In this document: positions 2,426 through 23,569 of the stretch, piece by piece
How positions within the stretch are numbered: the stretch's first letter is position 1
Layout: each line of letters begins with the position of its first letter
IMG/VR virus record: IMGVR_UViG_3300027722_000025
Coordinates: 1 to 26,390 of that record
Origin: a virus
Reading direction: 5' to 3' (one strand)
DNA length: 26,390 nucleotides
Translations under genes and position numbers: made by a program
Notes under the pieces: generated by a model
What the model was told of the DNA's origin: nothing
Database searches by the model: none
The model's input: only the letters and a program-made list of their open reading frames with translations

Positions 2426-3173
2426 TTTCTCATCTCCCTTTCGCTCGCGATGCGTTCGCTACGCTGCACGTCGAGATACCGAATGACGTCGAGGAGGATC
2501 ATGGTCAGCTCGCGATCGACACCCTGCCAGCGACACCACTCCAAGATCGCGGTGTACGGGACCGGACCCGCACCGGAGAATCCGTACGACCGACACGAGT
2601 CAAGGTCGTGCCAGCATTCGAGGCACAACTCGCACGCATCGTCGATCTCCGGTTTGTTGCGGTCGAGCGTCTCCTGTTCAATCGCGGTCGGCGGGCGCTC
2701 TTTGATGCGTAGCTGACGGCGGATGCCTTCGGTGCCCCGCTCCCATGTGAGCCACGCATCTACTCTTTTCCCAGGTCGACCGCCTCGACGATCGGCTCGC
2801 GGTAGTTATCGGGGTTCATCGCCGCCGCGATCGCGTAGTCGACCTTTTCGGCACGCTTGGCACGGATGAGCTTGTGCAGCACCTCGGCGCCGAGTTCGGC
2901 CGAGTAAACGACCGGAACGCCATTCTTGGAAACGTTTTGCCAGCCCACGATCGCCAGCTTCGCGAGCAGCGTTGCCGCGCGCTCGGTTGCCGCCGTAGCA
3001 TCCGCGAGCGGCTTGAGCTTCATCATCGCATTCCAGTACGGAGATCCCTTGCCAGCAAACTTCGCGGTGAGCACGACAGGCTTGTCGCTGTCGCGCGGGA
3101 TGTGCACGTCGTGGAGCACGATGTCGAACGTGCCGCGCGGGGTCAGGTGATCGAACAGGTCATCATCGAACAT
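2422..3173 (-). CDS. Tail assembly chaperone, frameshifted long form (lambda GT-like)
   Basis: A -1 shift at the slippery site near 2766-2772 joins the 136-residue G part to a 114-residue extension ending at the TGA at 2422, giving a product of about 250 residues. The extension starts RVDAWLTWERGTEGI and continues through CELCLECWHDLDSCRSYGF, GPVPYTAILEWCRWQGV and LLDVIRYLDVQRSER. The 'PxxYxxIxxWxRxxGV' pattern is typical of the T part of tail chaperones, which contacts the tube subunit. The extension has no credible start of its own; the frame is open far upstream of its only TTG, and the ORF overlaps G. It ends in an ATGA overlap with the tape measure. The exact frame, position and family behaviour (lambda G/GT) agree. 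Only the shift efficiency is unknown. Confidence 0.8.
2760..3173 (-). CDS. Tail assembly chaperone, short form (lambda G-like)
   Basis: This 137-residue protein lies immediately upstream of the tape measure gene, the invariant place for the tail assembly chaperone in siphoviruses, where it coats the tape measure before tube polymerisation. The sequence fits: an N-terminal FDIVLHDVHIPRD beta segment, a helical ATAATERAATLLAKLAIVGW segment, and VYSAELGAEVLHKLI near the C-terminus. No strong Shine-Dalgarno precedes the ATG at 3173. Instead a TAATCGACCC motif sits 36 bp upstream and overlaps the stop codon of the upstream HNH gene. The last codons (CTG GGA AAA GAG TAG) contain a slippery heptamer that permits a -1 shift into the longer form. 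Confidence 0.8.
   Translation of the reverse strand: MFDDDLFDHLTPRGTFDIVLHDVHIPRDSDKPVVLTAKFAGKGSPYWNAMMKLKPLADATAATERAATLLAKLAIVGWQNVSKNGVPVVYSAELGAEVLHKLIRAKRAEKVDYAIAAAMNPDNYREPIVEAVDLGKE
2766..2772 (-). promoter_or_regulatory. Programmed -1 ribosomal frameshift slippery site GGGAAAA
   Basis: On the minus strand the reading frame is CTG GGA AAA GAG TAG, so the heptamer is G GGA AAA, the X XXY YYZ form and one base from lambda's GGGAAAG. Slipping back one base places the ribosome exactly in the open frame encoding the chaperone extension. A modest hairpin can be drawn in the next ~40 bases (GATGC pairing with GCATC, with GCTC/GAGC inside), but it is not strong. Confidence 0.85.
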
Positions 3174-3209
3174 GTTGGGTGGAAGAGATTTTCACTCCGG
3201 TTGGCGAGT

Positions 3210-3219
3210 GGGTCGATTA
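3210..3219 (-). promoter_or_regulatory. TAATCGACCC motif upstream of the chaperone gene
   Basis: Read on the minus strand this is TAATCGACCC, ending 36 bp before the ATG of the chaperone gene at 3173. Its first three bases are the TAA stop of the upstream HNH gene. It is one of six copies in the window. Candidate late promoter or operator. Confidence 0.5.
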
Positions 3220-4059
3220 CCGTACTGCCATCAATCCGCCGAGTTCTTTCCACGACCGCCCAGTGCACAACGCAGCAACGGCGGCCTTTGTAACCCCCAT
3301 CCTCGCCGCGACTGAAATTCTCGATTCACCGTTTCGTATACTATCAAGAGCCTCTTTGGCCAGCGCGAGTGTTAGCTTGCACTGCCGCGAATTCCGGTTC
3401 TGCTCGGTGGCCGTCGCCCATCGACAGTTCCCCGGCGAATACCCTAGCGCGTTGTTGCGCCTGTCGATGGTCGTCCGATATGGGCGTTCCCCCATGTCCG
3501 CAAGAAAATCATCGAACGACAGCCAGCGCTCGCATACATCGATGCCTCGAGCGCCGTACTGCGCGTAGTCGGTATGCTTAGGATTCGAACATCGGCCGAT
3601 CATCTCACGCCACGACCCGTAGGCCCTCATTGCACGCATCGATCTCGCAGTATCAGCACGACGAAAACGCTCAGCATCGATGACGGCGCGATCACGTTCT
3701 CTTTTTTCTTTGGACTCCCTACGAACGCATCCACAGGACCACATGCCGCTCCGCAGTCTCTGCGAGTAACAGGATTTGGTGACGCCGCACGAGCACCGAC
3801 ACTCGACTTTCCCGCCGCCCAGATCGGCAATCACGGATAACCGTCCAAACCGCTGCCCAACTAGCACAGACGGCGCCAGCGGATGACGGCAGGCACTCGC
3901 CATTCGCAAGTTGCTGCCATAGACAACCTGCTCGTAGCCGCATTCACAACGGCAAAGCCAGCGAGTGCGAGTAAACCCCCGATAACGGTCGTCTGGAGCT
4001 CGCGTGATTACCGTCAGCTTGCCGTATACATGACCTGTTCGGTCAACAACTCTCCCCAT
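3217..4059 (-). CDS. HNH-type homing endonuclease with duplicated Cys-rich module and C-terminal HTH
   Basis: This is a 280-residue protein if started at the ATG at 4059; the frame also stays open to a TTG at 4092. Two similar N-terminal modules each have a 'GxxFGxLxVI' lead and a CxCxCG cluster (LCRCECG near residue 35; ECRCSCG near 86, closed by SCGC). These look like small zinc-binding DNA-contact modules. The nuclease core follows: SWREMIGRCSNP, YGARGIDVCERW, FLADMGERP, then TIDRRNN and GYSPGNCRWA, as in phage HNH proteins. The C-terminus (ISVAARMGVTKAAVAAL) is an HTH of the kind that follows homing nucleases. It sits alone between the tail tube and chaperone genes with no structural role implied, so a free-standing homing endonuclease is the likely reading. 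Confidence 0.8.
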   Translation of the reverse strand: MGRVVDRTGHVYGKLTVITRAPDDRYRGFTRTRWLCRCECGYEQVVYGSNLRMASACRHPLAPSVLVGQRFGRLSVIADLGGGKVECRCSCGVTKSCYSQRLRSGMWSCGCVRRESKEKRERDRAVIDAERFRRADTARSMRAMRAYGSWREMIGRCSNPKHTDYAQYGARGIDVCERWLSFDDFLADMGERPYRTTIDRRNNALGYSPGNCRWATATEQNRNSRQCKLTLALAKEALDSIRNGESRISVAARMGVTKAAVAALCTGRSWKELGGLMAVR

Positions 4060-4199
4060 GTACGCATCATAGTGCGCGAATCGAACATGCAACAGACATA
4101 CAAACAGTTCGATTACCCGTTACCCGAGGGACCCGGCGCGTGAGGCGCTGGCCGGGGCAGCGTGGCTCTAGCCTACTTGGGGGAAGCCGGCGAACCGCC
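4060..4199. other. Gene-free spacer between the tail tube and HNH genes
   Basis: There is no ORF with protein character here. It contains TAATCGAAC (minus strand, 4107-4115), a one-base variant of the repeated TAATCGACC motif, and short GC-rich stems just after the tube gene stop (GGCG/CGCC with a 3-base loop). These are too weak to call a terminator. Confidence 0.4.
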
Positions 4200-6662: not shown

Positions 6663-7004
6663 ATGTCTCAGTGGCGAATTTACTACGACGACGGGTCAAC
6701 GTACGACGGGCCCGTCGATCTCGCGCCGTGCGACGGCGTGATCGTCGTCGCGCAAGCGGACGCCGACGTTGGCCGCGAGATTCTCCACCTCAAGGACTTC
6801 TACTACTGGGAGCGCGATCGCTGGTTCGGCTGCGATCTCTACGGGCTATGGGATTACCTTCGTCGACCCGGATGGAAAAAGACGCTCGCGGGTCGCAACA
6901 CCGAGCATCGCAACTACTCGGCGATTTACCAGCGCGCGCTCGACGATGACGACCTGCCGCCAAAGTCGGCGCGCCATATGAACGAGGCACCGCGTCGTGC
7001 CTAA
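6663..7004 (+). CDS. Conserved phage protein of unknown function (YYW..WFGxDLYGLWDYL)
   Basis: A 113-residue protein started at the ATG at 6663, preceded by AAAGGA. A GTG at 6651 in frame would add four residues. The N-terminus WRIYYDDGSTYDGPVDLAP and central DFYYWERDRWFGCDLYGLWD are characteristic of a small conserved phage family I have seen near tail or fibre genes, but no function is established. The end overlaps the start of the repeat-fibre gene by 8 bases in another frame, indicating translational coupling. Confidence 0.75.
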   Translation: MSQWRIYYDDGSTYDGPVDLAPCDGVIVVAQADADVGREILHLKDFYYWERDRWFGCDLYGLWDYLRRPGWKKTLAGRNTEHRNYSAIYQRALDDDDLPPKSARHMNEAPRRA

Positions 7005-8751
7005 TGTTTTCGCATGTACCGCACGTGCGTTCCGGTTCTACGAGGACGGAACAGAAGCCGGCTCTGTCGCGATCGACGCCGAATCAACGAACATCACGCG
7101 TCTCGTTACGTCGGACTCGAACCTGCTATTGCGCTACGGCATTCAGGAGTCCGGATCTGGATCGATCAGCGGTGCAACCACTGACGACTATCAGCTTCAG
7201 TACGAGCTAAACGACAGTGGCTCGTGGGTGAGTGTGACCGCATCGTCGGCGGTCGTGAAGGGCTTCGCCTCTGGCAGCTTGACCGACGCCGGTACGACAA
7301 CGAATCGACTATCGGCCGGCGGCGGCTCATTCGTCGCGGGCGAGATCAGCGAGGTCGGACTCGTCACCGATCGGCAGTTGACGGCGAACAACCACACCGA
7401 GATGCTCTACGCGATCACGCTGGTCTCGGCCGATCTCAGCGACGCCGACACGCTCGACTTTCGCGTGCTGCTCAACGGTAGCGTGTTCGCGGCGTACACG
7501 GTCACGCCGCGCATCACTGCCGACAAAACTGCTGCGCCGACCGAGGCAGATGGATCGTCCGCTGGATCGTCAACTGCAAGTGCAGTTGGTGAATCCACGG
7601 CCGCCAGCAGCGGAACGGCCACCGGTGTCGGTTCGGCGAGTGCGGCTGGAGAAAGCACGGCAGAGTCGAGCGGAACGTCTGCCGGCAGTGCGACCGCAAG
7701 CGCTACCGGGGCGTCCGTCGCAGAGTCGTCAGGTACGGTATCCGGATCGTCGTCCGCCAGCGCCGTCGGCGAGTCCGTGCTCGCAGGAACTGGCACGGCC
7801 GCAGGCACATCGATCGGCGCAGCGACGGGCGAGTCCACGGCCGCGAGCAGCGGCACATCCGCAGGCATCGCGAGTGCATCTGCCGCTGGCGAATCGACGG
7901 CGACGAGCAGCGGCACCGCCTCAGGATCCGCTACCGCCGCAGGTGTTGGCGCATCCACTGCCGCAAGCTCTGGATCCTCGGCAGGCGAGTCGACCGCATC
8001 GGCCGTCGGCCTGGCTGTCATCGAGGCGGCCGGATCGGCGGCTGGCACGTCGGCAGCATCGGCAGCCGGTGAATCGACTGCGACATCGAGCGGAACCGCG
8101 GCCGGATCGGCGGCAGCGTCTGCAGTCGGAGAGTCGACCGCGGCGTCATCAGGAACCAGTGCCGGTACCGCAACCGCGGCAGGCGCTGGCGAATCAACCG
8201 CGACCGCGAGCGGTACGAGCGCGGGGATTGCGAGCGCGACAGGCACCGGCGCGTCTGTCGCCGAGTCGTCTGGATCTGCTGCCGGTACATCGACCGCGGT
8301 AGGCGAAGGCACCACCGTCGGCGGCGATACCGCGACCGGCACGAGCGCGGGCACGTCCACTGCCGCGGCGACCGGCGAGTCCGTAGCGGCGAGCTCTGGC
8401 AGCTCGGCGGGAACCGCAACGGCGACCGGCACAGGCGCGGCGACCGTTGCGGCGAGCGGATCGGCAGCCGCGGAGTCGTCAGCGTCAGGTGTCGGGGCAT
8501 CGACCGCAGCAGCGAGTGGCACTGCGGCGGGCGACTCCAGTGCGACAGGGGTCGGCGCGAGTACGGCCGAGGCGACCGGCTCGGCCGCGGGCACGTCGAC
8601 GGCAACCGGCGAAGGAACTACCGCGGGTATCTCGGCGTCCTCGGGCAGCGCGGCGGGATCGTCGACAGCGGCAGCGGTCGCGTACGTCCCCCGCACCATC
8701 ACTCTCTCCAACCCCAGCGCGCGCACGATGACCCTCACGGAGACACCATGA
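6997..8751 (+). CDS. Repeat-rich virion/fibre-like protein with ~18 copies of a 20-residue A/G/S/T repeat
   Basis: A 584-residue protein. Residues 1-180 are a mixed beta-looking domain ([15 protein letters not shown], then [44 protein letters not shown]), which is probably the virion attachment part. From about residue 186 to 560 there are roughly 18 tandem units with consensus AxGESTAxSSGTxAGxATAS. Each unit is two related ten-residue halves. Two units carry a two-residue insertion (both begin GEGTT). The repeat uses almost only A, G, S, T, V and E. The C-terminus returns to ordinary sequence ([13 protein letters not shown]). No enzymatic motif. It is likely an extended fibre, spacer or decoration. 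The stop overlaps the next ATG (ATGA). Confidence 0.8.
7552..8676 (+). repeat. Coding tandem repeat, 60-bp period (20 residues), ~18 units
   Basis: Period-60 units are kept in frame. Amino-acid conservation is much stronger than nucleotide identity, with serine, glycine and alanine codons varying freely. This indicates an old or purified repeat rather than a recent expansion. Two units near 8305 and 8615 are 66 bp. Confidence 0.8.
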
Positions 8752-21875: not shown

Positions 21876-22246
21876 CGACACCTCGGACAGTAGTGCCCCT
21901 TCGGCGTCGTCGCCCACCCGAGTGCGAACACCACCGTGGCCAGTGCATCCTCGTCGGGCATCGGGTCGAACGCCAAAGCGCTCGGACATCGCGCCCCGTC
22001 GCACCGTACGGCGACCGGCCACACCCGCTGTGCACTCGCGGCCTGCGCGATGTCGCGCGCCTCACGTGCTCGCTCGGCCTCGTGGACGAGCCGCCGGTTG
22101 TCTTGGCGCGTCACCTCGAGTTTGCTCTGGACGTCCAGGAGCTCGCGCGCGAACGCATCGGCGAGCGACCGATCGTTCGGGCTGTGCTCTAGCCACCGGA
22201 CCGCCGCCTCTGCCGGGGTCACGATCTCCGCCGTATCAGTTCGCAT
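21872..22246 (-). CDS. Coiled-coil protein with a C-terminal zinc ribbon
   Basis: 124 residues from the ATG at 22246. The N-terminal two-thirds is helical and charged (AEAAVRWLEHSPNDRSLADA, LLDVQSKLEVTRQDNRRLVH, AERAREARDIAQAASAQR). The C-terminus is a ribbon: VRCDGARCPSALAF, then FALGWATTPKGHYCPRC. Such 'CxxxxC...GW....HYCPxC' tails occur in small phage regulators and unknown proteins. It overlaps the nucleotidase gene end by 28 bases and the next gene by ATGA. Confidence 0.7.
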   Translation of the reverse strand: MRTDTAEIVTPAEAAVRWLEHSPNDRSLADAFARELLDVQSKLEVTRQDNRRLVHEAERAREARDIAQAASAQRVWPVAVRCDGARCPSALAFDPMPDEDALATVVFALGWATTPKGHYCPRCR

Positions 22247-22779
22247 AGCTCGCTCCAATCGTTCGTTCGGGGACCGGCGTCGCTGTCGTTCTGGTTGTGC
22301 GGCGTCGACCACACGACACCCAACGCGTCTGGATACTCTGCGCGCCACAGCTGCACCGTCGATACCTTGTCGTCGATCAGCACGTCACCACGGCACACGT
22401 GCTTGGCCGCCGTGTGGATCACGCGCTTTGCCGGGATGTCGAAGTGCTTCTGGAGCCACCATTCACGGTCATGGGTCCAAGTCGGATTTGAGTTCCACGG
22501 CGACGTGACGACGTAGACATCCGCGATCCGTTGCAGCGCAGCGACCCCGTCGCGGCTCCCCGGATACACCGCGAGCGCGGTCGCCAGCGCGGGCGATTCA
22601 CCGACGGCGCGCTTGACGAGCGACGCGTCGGACGCCGACAGGCCGATTGACTTGTTGATGTCGAACTCGGTGACCTGCTCGGGAACGAACCGCAAGCCGG
22701 TGACGCGGTTGACGATGCGCAGATAGGCAGAGATAAAGTCACTAAGAATCCCATCACAATCCAAAAGGACGCGTGTCAT
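22219..22779 (-). CDS. 5'(3')-deoxyribonucleotidase, HAD superfamily
   Basis: A 186-residue protein with all HAD motifs: motif I LLDCDGILSDF (Asp7, Asp9), motif II VVTSPW (Thr92/Ser93), the lysine at AKHVC (Lys126), and motif IV DVLIDDK (Asp136/Asp137). This is the cytosolic 5'-nucleotidase type C family, which dephosphorylates deoxynucleoside monophosphates and is common in phages for nucleotide-pool control. Its ATG overlaps the TGA of the upstream HNH gene (ATGA). Its first ten codons encode the same residues as the first ten of that HNH gene, with nine synonymous differences, so it looks like a restored gene start after endonuclease insertion. Confidence 0.88.
   Translation of the reverse strand: MTRVLLDCDGILSDFISAYLRIVNRVTGLRFVPEQVTEFDINKSIGLSASDASLVKRAVGESPALATALAVYPGSRDGVAALQRIADVYVVTSPWNSNPTWTHDREWWLQKHFDIPAKRVIHTAAKHVCRGDVLIDDKVSTVQLWRAEYPDALGVVWSTPHNQNDSDAGPRTNDWSELCELIRRRS
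22750..22779 (-). repeat. Recoded first ten codons of the nucleotidase
   Basis: Codons ATG ACA CGC GTC CTT and onward encode the same ten residues as 23319-23348, with 9 of 30 bases different, all silent and with more A/T at third positions. Confidence 0.8.
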
Positions 22780-23348
22780 CGTAGGCGCTCCATGTCCGCA
22801 AGCACACGGCGCATCTCGTCAAGCGTGGCGTTGTTCTTTAGCGTGTTCGCGCGATTTGAGATCACGCGGAGGTTGCTAGCGACGTAGCCAAGATCGGGAA
22901 CGATGCGATCGAGTGACGGGCTGTTCGGTGCATGCTTGCCGCGCTTTGCGTAGTAGAAGATCTCGATCCCGAGGACCGGACAAATGTCCGGCAGAACGAG
23001 ATCGGGAATCTCATGGTCAAACGGAAACCCTTCGCGCCGAGCACGAACGCGTGCCGCGCGAAACGTCTCCGTCAACCACCACTGCCTTGGGTTCGCTGCA
23101 TAGGCCGCAACGCGCTTAGCCGCACGCTCACGAGTGACGCGAGCCTTATTTTTCTTCCACCACTTCTTGCGGTGCGCGGCCACTCTCTCCGGGTTCTGGT
23201 CGCGCCACTCATAGACCTTCGCAAGATGATCGTCTGCTCGACGCTGGTAGGTCGCGCGATTCCGTGCTCTACGAGCGGCAACAGCCGGGTCAACGAGAAC
23301 ACCCGGAAGCGCGGCCTGACCGTCGCAGTCGAGGAGTACGCGCGTCAT
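22776..23348 (-). CDS. HNH/endonuclease VII-like homing endonuclease fused to a nucleotidase start
   Basis: 190 residues from the ATG at 23348. The first ten residues (MTRVLLDCDG) are the start of a nucleotidase, not of a nuclease. From residue 11 a typical phage HNH protein follows: basic repeats (RNRATYQRRADDH, NPERVAAHRKKWWKKNKAR), then DICPVLGIEIFYY, SPSLDRIVPDLGYVASNLRV and ISNRANTLKNNATLDEMRRV. The ATG overlaps the stop of the upstream gene (ATGA) and GGGGAG lies before it, so the nuclease uses the target gene's own translation signals. Its stop overlaps the restored nucleotidase ATG. A longer in-frame start at 23363 is less likely. Confidence 0.85.
   Translation of the reverse strand: MTRVLLDCDGQAALPGVLVDPAVAARRARNRATYQRRADDHLAKVYEWRDQNPERVAAHRKKWWKKNKARVTRERAAKRVAAYAANPRQWWLTETFRAARVRARREGFPFDHEIPDLVLPDICPVLGIEIFYYAKRGKHAPNSPSLDRIVPDLGYVASNLRVISNRANTLKNNATLDEMRRVLADMERLR
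23319..23348 (-). repeat. Original first ten codons of the nucleotidase, retained in the HNH gene
   Basis: Codons ATG ACG CGC GTA CTC and onward encode MTRVLLDCDG. The GC-rich third positions match the surrounding genes. It is the partner of 22750-22779. Confidence 0.8.
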
Positions 23349-23569
23349 CGGATCTCCCCGCATCGCAACTTCGCTTCGGCCTCGGCTCTGGTCTCACGCC
23401 AGTTACCGCAACCGAGTGAGGCGACGAGCGCGCGACGTGCGAGCAGCAGCGAATCCGGCCGCGTGAATCCCAGCCGATCGTGAATCTCGCGCAGGGTCTC
23501 GCCGGTACCGCTGGCACAGATCGCGAGCAGCTCGACGGCGCCGTAGGTGGTGCGTTGGGTGGGCGTCAT
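23345..23569 (-). CDS. Small HTH-like hypothetical protein
   Basis: 74 residues. PTQRTTYGAVELLAICASG then TLREIHDRLGFTRPDSLLLA looks like a compact winged-helix or HTH (helix, turn, recognition helix). It is followed by ALVASLGCGNWRETRAEAEA. Not assigned to a named family. Coupled at both ends by ATGA overlaps: with the ribbon-helix-helix gene upstream and with the HNH/nucleotidase start downstream. Confidence 0.65.
   Translation of the reverse strand: MTPTQRTTYGAVELLAICASGTGETLREIHDRLGFTRPDSLLLARRALVASLGCGNWRETRAEAEAKLRCGEIR

Follow-up and report, generated by a model that had tools for sequence, protein, structure and literature searches.

The window analysed here, a stretch of 26,390 nucleotides, comes from a freshwater phage and carries the locus under study entirely on the minus strand, in the order small HTH-like gene, HNH endonuclease gene, NT5C-type 5'(3')-deoxyribonucleotidase gene and more genes toward the terminase. 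The HTH-like gene upstream of the HNH gene (P0003; 23345..23569, minus) gave no Pfam or PHROG match, and its stop overlaps the HNH start in the ATGA at 23345-23348. The HNH gene (22776..23348, minus) encodes a phrog_3322-like protein of 190 residues that starts with copied NT5C codons, and its stop overlaps the NT5C start in a second ATGA at 22776-22779. An ATGA overlap at both junctions had been claimed in the first-pass annotation of this DNA, and both overlaps are present. The NT5C gene (22219..22779, minus) is intact and encodes 186 residues. Upstream of the HNH gene, GGGGAG at 23354..23359 (minus) is the likely RBS of the original NT5C start and would now serve the HNH gene, while a GGAG at 22788..22791 (minus) lies 8 nt before the NT5C start, within the 3' end of the HNH gene.

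A second record of 55.6 kb, IMGVR_UViG_3300009157_000022, contains this sequence too, differing by one 1-bp indel and leaving the first 204 bp of the window unmatched; it is evidently the same virus. We considered misassembly and rejected it: the sequence recurs in the two records, which makes a chimeric assembly unlikely, although the records may share one sample.

The HNH protein matched the PHROG endonuclease profile phrog_3322 (1.4e-30) and the endonuclease VII profile phrog_1035 (2.3e-15), with no match in Pfam. Its structure model is confident (mean pLDDT 85.9) outside residues 1-14, which are predicted to be disordered, and a Foldseek search of the PDB returned PacI (prob 0.90), the Geobacter (Gme) HNH nicking enzyme, the Cas9 HNH domain and ColE7, all with E values of at least 0.16. 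Homology to the nearest full-length relative, the HNH of locus L385 described below, begins at approximately residue 15, after the copied NT5C codons and four joining residues, QAAL (23307..23318, minus; placed by alignment to the L385 HNH). The HNH reading frame contains no ATG, GTG or TTG between codon 1 and GTG56. As read from its sequence, the HNH gene lacks any other plausible start and depends on the captured NT5C start. The NT5C protein matched PF06941 at 61.7 bits (cut-off 24.8) and retains the conserved HAD residues D7, D9, K126, D136 and D137. A self-splicing intron or intein was rejected because NT5C forms a complete open reading frame that begins at an ATG of its own, overlapping the HNH stop, and thus needs no splicing.

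The start of NT5C is present twice at the locus. Copy 1 (23319..23348, minus), now the HNH start, reads ATG ACG CGC GTA CTC CTC GAC TGC GAC GGT from 23348 to 23319, and copy 2 (22750..22779, minus), which forms codons 1-10 of the present NT5C gene, reads ATG ACA CGC GTC CTT TTG GAT TGT GAT GGG from 22779 to 22750. Both encode MTRVLLDCDG, so that the HNH protein does open with the first ten NT5C residues, as had been proposed; the proposal of nine silent differences is likewise borne out, with 9 of the 30 bases changed and all of the changes silent. When nine random substitutions were placed in copy 1 by simulation, all were silent in one of 2,000,000 trials. Independent draws from the codon usage of the phage gave a mean of 5.4 differences, compared with the nine observed (P 0.024). 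We also screened related loci totalling 2.03 Mb for start codons separated by 200-2500 nt, filtering repeats by eye, and among 1.59 million such pairs the window pair was the only 9/9 match outside repeats and low-complexity open reading frames. Since all nine differences are silent, both copies appear to have diverged under protein constraint. Most simply, given that the protein sequence was kept in both despite the silent change, the copies would have diverged as two functional NT5C starts before coming together.

Codon usage separates the two copies. With the 50 called genes of the 55.6-kb record as the reference, copy 1 is ordinary and in the usual codon style of the phage (deviation 0.02). 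NT5C codons 2-19 (22723..22776, minus) deviate by -12.4, the lowest value among the 50 gene starts (next -7.1) and within the lowest 0.14% of all 18-codon windows, and usage is ordinary again in codons 20-37 (deviation +2.3). A change-point test on GC3 placed the border at NT5C codon 20, where GC3 rises from 0.39 to 0.82 (p 0.008). The deviant tract is therefore about twice the length of the duplicated part. The first-pass annotation had proposed that the HNH gene inserted at the NT5C start and took over that start, with a synonymously different 5' end behind it, and these features stand; its proposal that the HNH gene brought this end with it is a probable reading. It had confined the recoding to codons 1-10, and this part must be extended, as the unusual codons reach codon 19. 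Because copy 1 is ordinary and codons 2-19 are outlying, the native NT5C start of the phage appears to be the copy inside the HNH gene, and the one that NT5C now uses appears foreign or rewritten.

Selection for translation could also make an NT5C start A/T-rich, through a need for an unstructured start or for coupling from the HNH gene, with neither a foreign origin nor resistance involved. Gene 5' ends are often A/T-richer, and some neighbouring genes do show milder 5' GC3 drops. However, the NT5C start is an outlier among the 50 gene starts, copy 1 has normal codons even though it is the former start, and most HNH-free NT5C genes, several of which overlap their upstream neighbour, have no drop. 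We regard this explanation as highly improbable.

The account that we favour, and consider probably correct, is that a free-standing HNH homing endonuclease targeting motif I came to lie at the NT5C start, with a recoded 5' end then keeping NT5C intact. Seen directly in the sequence are the captured start of the HNH gene, the recoded start and completeness of NT5C and, across loci, the recurrent association with NT5C; cleavage, resistance and donor origin are predicted. The nuclease would cut an NT5C gene that has no insert, at or close to the codons for motif I (LLDCDG), and repair of the break from an HNH-bearing donor would copy in the HNH gene together with the donor's divergent NT5C 5' end, as far as about codon 19-20, where the sequence would return to the resident NT5C. 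At the opposite border, codons 1-10 of the resident gene would stay and be joined in frame to the HNH gene. Translation of the HNH gene would then begin at the former NT5C start, in coupling with the upstream gene, and NT5C translation would re-initiate at the ATGA. The divergent 5' end would preserve NT5C function and is probably no longer a match for the nuclease. We infer the donor and the direction of exchange, as DNA and protein searches of phages, IMG/VR and GTDB species genomes found no donor phage or close relative, with or without the HNH gene. The nearest terminase relative (L010) is without NT5C.

A search with the NT5C-start motif found a second such locus, L385, in a 194-kb virus record from a virus unrelated to the window phage, in which the stop of an HNH gene from the window's family falls within the start of NT5C. 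This HNH is the best match to the window HNH among those collected (132.9 bits; next 96.8), with 41% identity over 174 residues, while the NT5C proteins of the two loci are only ~36% identical. The L385 gene order is MazG-HNH-NT5C, and at L101 a MazG-like gene is followed directly by NT5C, with no HNH; the two MazG homologues are just 36% identical. The L385 HNH and NT5C starts have only MRP in common, and we find MRKPE in L101. These short shared starts are suggestive, and both were set aside as too short to count. For the GC3 change point in the L385 NT5C gene, p is 0.015 with one of two candidate start codons and 0.06 with the other.

We then ranked 43 GC-rich NT5C genes by how far GC3 falls across the 15 codons surrounding motif I. 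The three largest 5' drops were those of L378 (-0.44), the window (-0.41) and L385 (-0.26), against a mean of -0.06 (SD 0.13). At L378 the nuclease was not known at the time of ranking, and later inspection revealed an HNH_3 gene (PF13392, 1.2e-17) with an ATGA junction at either end, upstream to a DNA polymerase gene and downstream to NT5C. The nuclease belongs to a different family (HNH_3) from those of the window and L385. Ranks 1-3 are thus occupied by the three HNH-overlapped NT5C genes; the chance of three given genes filling these ranks is 8e-5, or 0.001 when the window is left out, in a test that was devised during this analysis. The deviant tract ends at codons 16-20 in the window, L385 and L378. 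A long copy 1 is not retained at L378 or L385.

These loci bear on two further explanations. In the first, the HNH gene was inserted, the NT5C start was duplicated, and escape from the resident nuclease then drove silent changes in the recognition site within copy 2, in place. The deviant tract of ~55 nt round motif I has a size like that of homing recognition sites, its end falls at a repeated position (codons 16-20) in all three cases, and leaving the preferred codons of a GC-rich gene necessarily lowers GC3. This route requires many silent changes and zero non-silent ones, however, and copy 1 has kept its protein sequence exactly without a known constraint as a tail of the HNH protein. Codons 11-19 are deviant too, even though they lie outside the duplicated part. 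We consider such rewriting unlikely. It shares with homing the outcome of a nuclease living beside a recoded target.

In the second, two NT5C alleles were mixed by ordinary mosaic exchange, and the border happens to hold an HNH gene that does not target NT5C. Copy 2 would then simply be a divergent allele, and nuclease genes are frequent at the borders of phage-phage exchange (PMC10448857), which is consistent with such an origin. Against this, the start of NT5C is also where the closest collected relative of the window HNH is located in an unrelated virus, and a second HNH family has a member at this site, again accompanied by the 5' codon shift. Recombination without homing is therefore very unlikely in our view.

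Several observations at other NT5C genes are less easily placed. L107 has an HNH-like gene (2562-2984) that lies 11 nt upstream of NT5C without overlap, and the NT5C gene shows a GC3 drop of -0.17 (rank 9 of 43). A partial NT5C gene in L388 (~13820, reverse complement) shows a GC3 dip of -0.39 with no upstream nuclease; it either contradicts the pattern or is what remains after a nuclease was lost. In L092 the first five NT5C codons form an A/T-rich run, also without a nuclease. A scan of the other genes upstream of NT5C gave a weak HNH match (PF01844, 8.6e-5) in one of them. We also tried TGT, in place of TGC, at motif I as a codon diagnostic of resistance. TGT is present in 3/3 HNH-linked genes, but also in 4/12 HNH-free GC-rich NT5C genes, and so it is not diagnostic.

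Taken more broadly, phages might harbour a class of HNH nucleases from at least two families that insert exactly at the NT5C start, take over that start and repair the target by means of a recoded 5' end that resists cleavage, making them natural home-and-rescue elements. This generalization is tentative, and we hold it to be possible rather than probable. The MTRVLLDCDG start, whose occurrence in unrelated contexts the first-pass annotation had named as an observation that would speak against insertion, is absent from all HNH relatives collected; an A/T-rich start without an HNH gene, named there in the same sense, is not the rule among the HNH-free NT5C genes collected. As a similar arrangement is found in two unrelated phages, it resembles, by analogy, a natural 'cut, insert and repair' gene drive.

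The closest known parallel is that of the WHO elements of the yeasts Torulaspora and Lachancea, in which the nuclease swaps the 3' end of FBA1 for a resistant copy and the old 3' end is left behind (PMC7282813). As in the window, with its putative homing nuclease, a homing nuclease gene lies beside a conserved enzyme gene, one end of the target is a divergent copy that conserves the protein, and part of the old allele, now displaced, is kept beside the nuclease. The WHO elements differ in acting in the yeast nucleus at a 3' end, with an intein-derived zinc-finger nuclease, fragments of ~400 bp and proven resistance. In the phage the proposed exchange is at a 5' end, the nuclease is of the HNH type, the displaced fragment is 30 nt long and is the nuclease's own start, and resistance is putative. 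Since WHO and HO proteins combine an intein-like region with a zinc finger, the window nuclease is not their homologue, and we regard the locus as an analogue of WHO, its 5'-end phage counterpart, and not as a member of that group.

Other systems share part of the arrangement. Mobile endonuclease ORFs in the fungal mitochondria of Allomyces and Glomus arrive with a foreign piece of the host gene (PMC3630166), and in these and in insertions in Tremella (PMC7315562) the native piece stays as a duplicate, with differences that are often silent. The Allomyces and Glomus cases are mitochondrial, involve longer pieces and affect C-termini (PMC3630166). The Tremella duplications are N-terminal, as in the window, but they are mitochondrial and longer, and lie in predicted introns, with splicing confirmed in one case only (PMC7315562). 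Among phages, the free-standing seg and mob nucleases of T4-like phages lie beside genes of nucleotide metabolism or replication, and are often translationally coupled to the gene before them, as its overlap suggests for nrdA/mobE; the sites that they are known to cleave are hundreds to thousands of bp distant, and the passages of that source covered here describe neither a recoded 5' end nor a captured start (PMC2988022). The hidden HNH genes of the ShiLan type in phage methylase genes are also insertions that are neither introns nor inteins, yet they lie within the gene, out of frame, and are tolerated as a loop with no repair copy (PMC11855218). The engineered HomeR drive homes into a gene, carries a re-coded rescue of the missing part and uses the expression signals of the target, but it is a synthetic CRISPR construct that acts in flies at a 3' end (PMC7968924). 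In the open-access literature searched, no phage was described in which a nuclease uses a captured start and its target has a recoded 5' end. The kind of arrangement is thus already known, and what is new is that it occurs in a phage and at the 5' end of a gene, and that the nuclease starts on the displaced fragment.

If this reading is true, phages have independently reached the logic of the WHO elements and of engineered home-and-rescue drives, in which a conserved gene is cut, an element is inserted and a recoded patch is supplied. It would explain how a selfish nuclease can occupy the start of a conserved coding sequence and leave the gene working, and repeated homing could swap gene ends and generate mosaic alleles in phage metabolic genes. 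It also provides a search rule, namely to look behind nuclease genes for genes that open with odd codons, and L378 was found in this way.

Beyond these loci the pattern is restricted. The window's HNH family adjoined NT5C in none of the 192 NT5C loci from the first searches, and no start duplication was found in ~88 other HNH loci, where the other high scores were compositional. A general effect of HNH neighbours was considered and rejected: the genes behind 35 HNHs of the window's family show no 5' GC3 drop on average relative to other genes, which confines the claim to NT5C.

Some individual HNH genes are of note. In L237, an HNH gene of the window's family (2878-3288) has no ATG, GTG or TTG before codon 46 and ends in ATGA on a gene with a 5' GC3 drop of -0.26; it is possibly another start-dependent nuclease. 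In L174, L192, L228, L229 and L246 the HNH stop lies a few codons into the next gene (L174: ATGAGCCGTAAACAC), so that the opening bases of each neighbour also belong to the nuclease gene. Roseobacter phage CRP-7 (L176, 94-2712) has an HNH of the window's family between two pieces of a ribonucleotide reductase gene. In the window phage itself, a second HNH-type gene (3217-4092, minus) with a IDRRNNALGYSPGNCRWA motif and low GC3 (0.60) is likely a further mobile nuclease, and a long repeat-containing open reading frame (6997-8751, plus) runs against the direction of most genes. In IMGVR_UViG_3300009157_000022, the longer record of the window virus, an integrase-like gene (47995-49047, minus) suggests a temperate phage.
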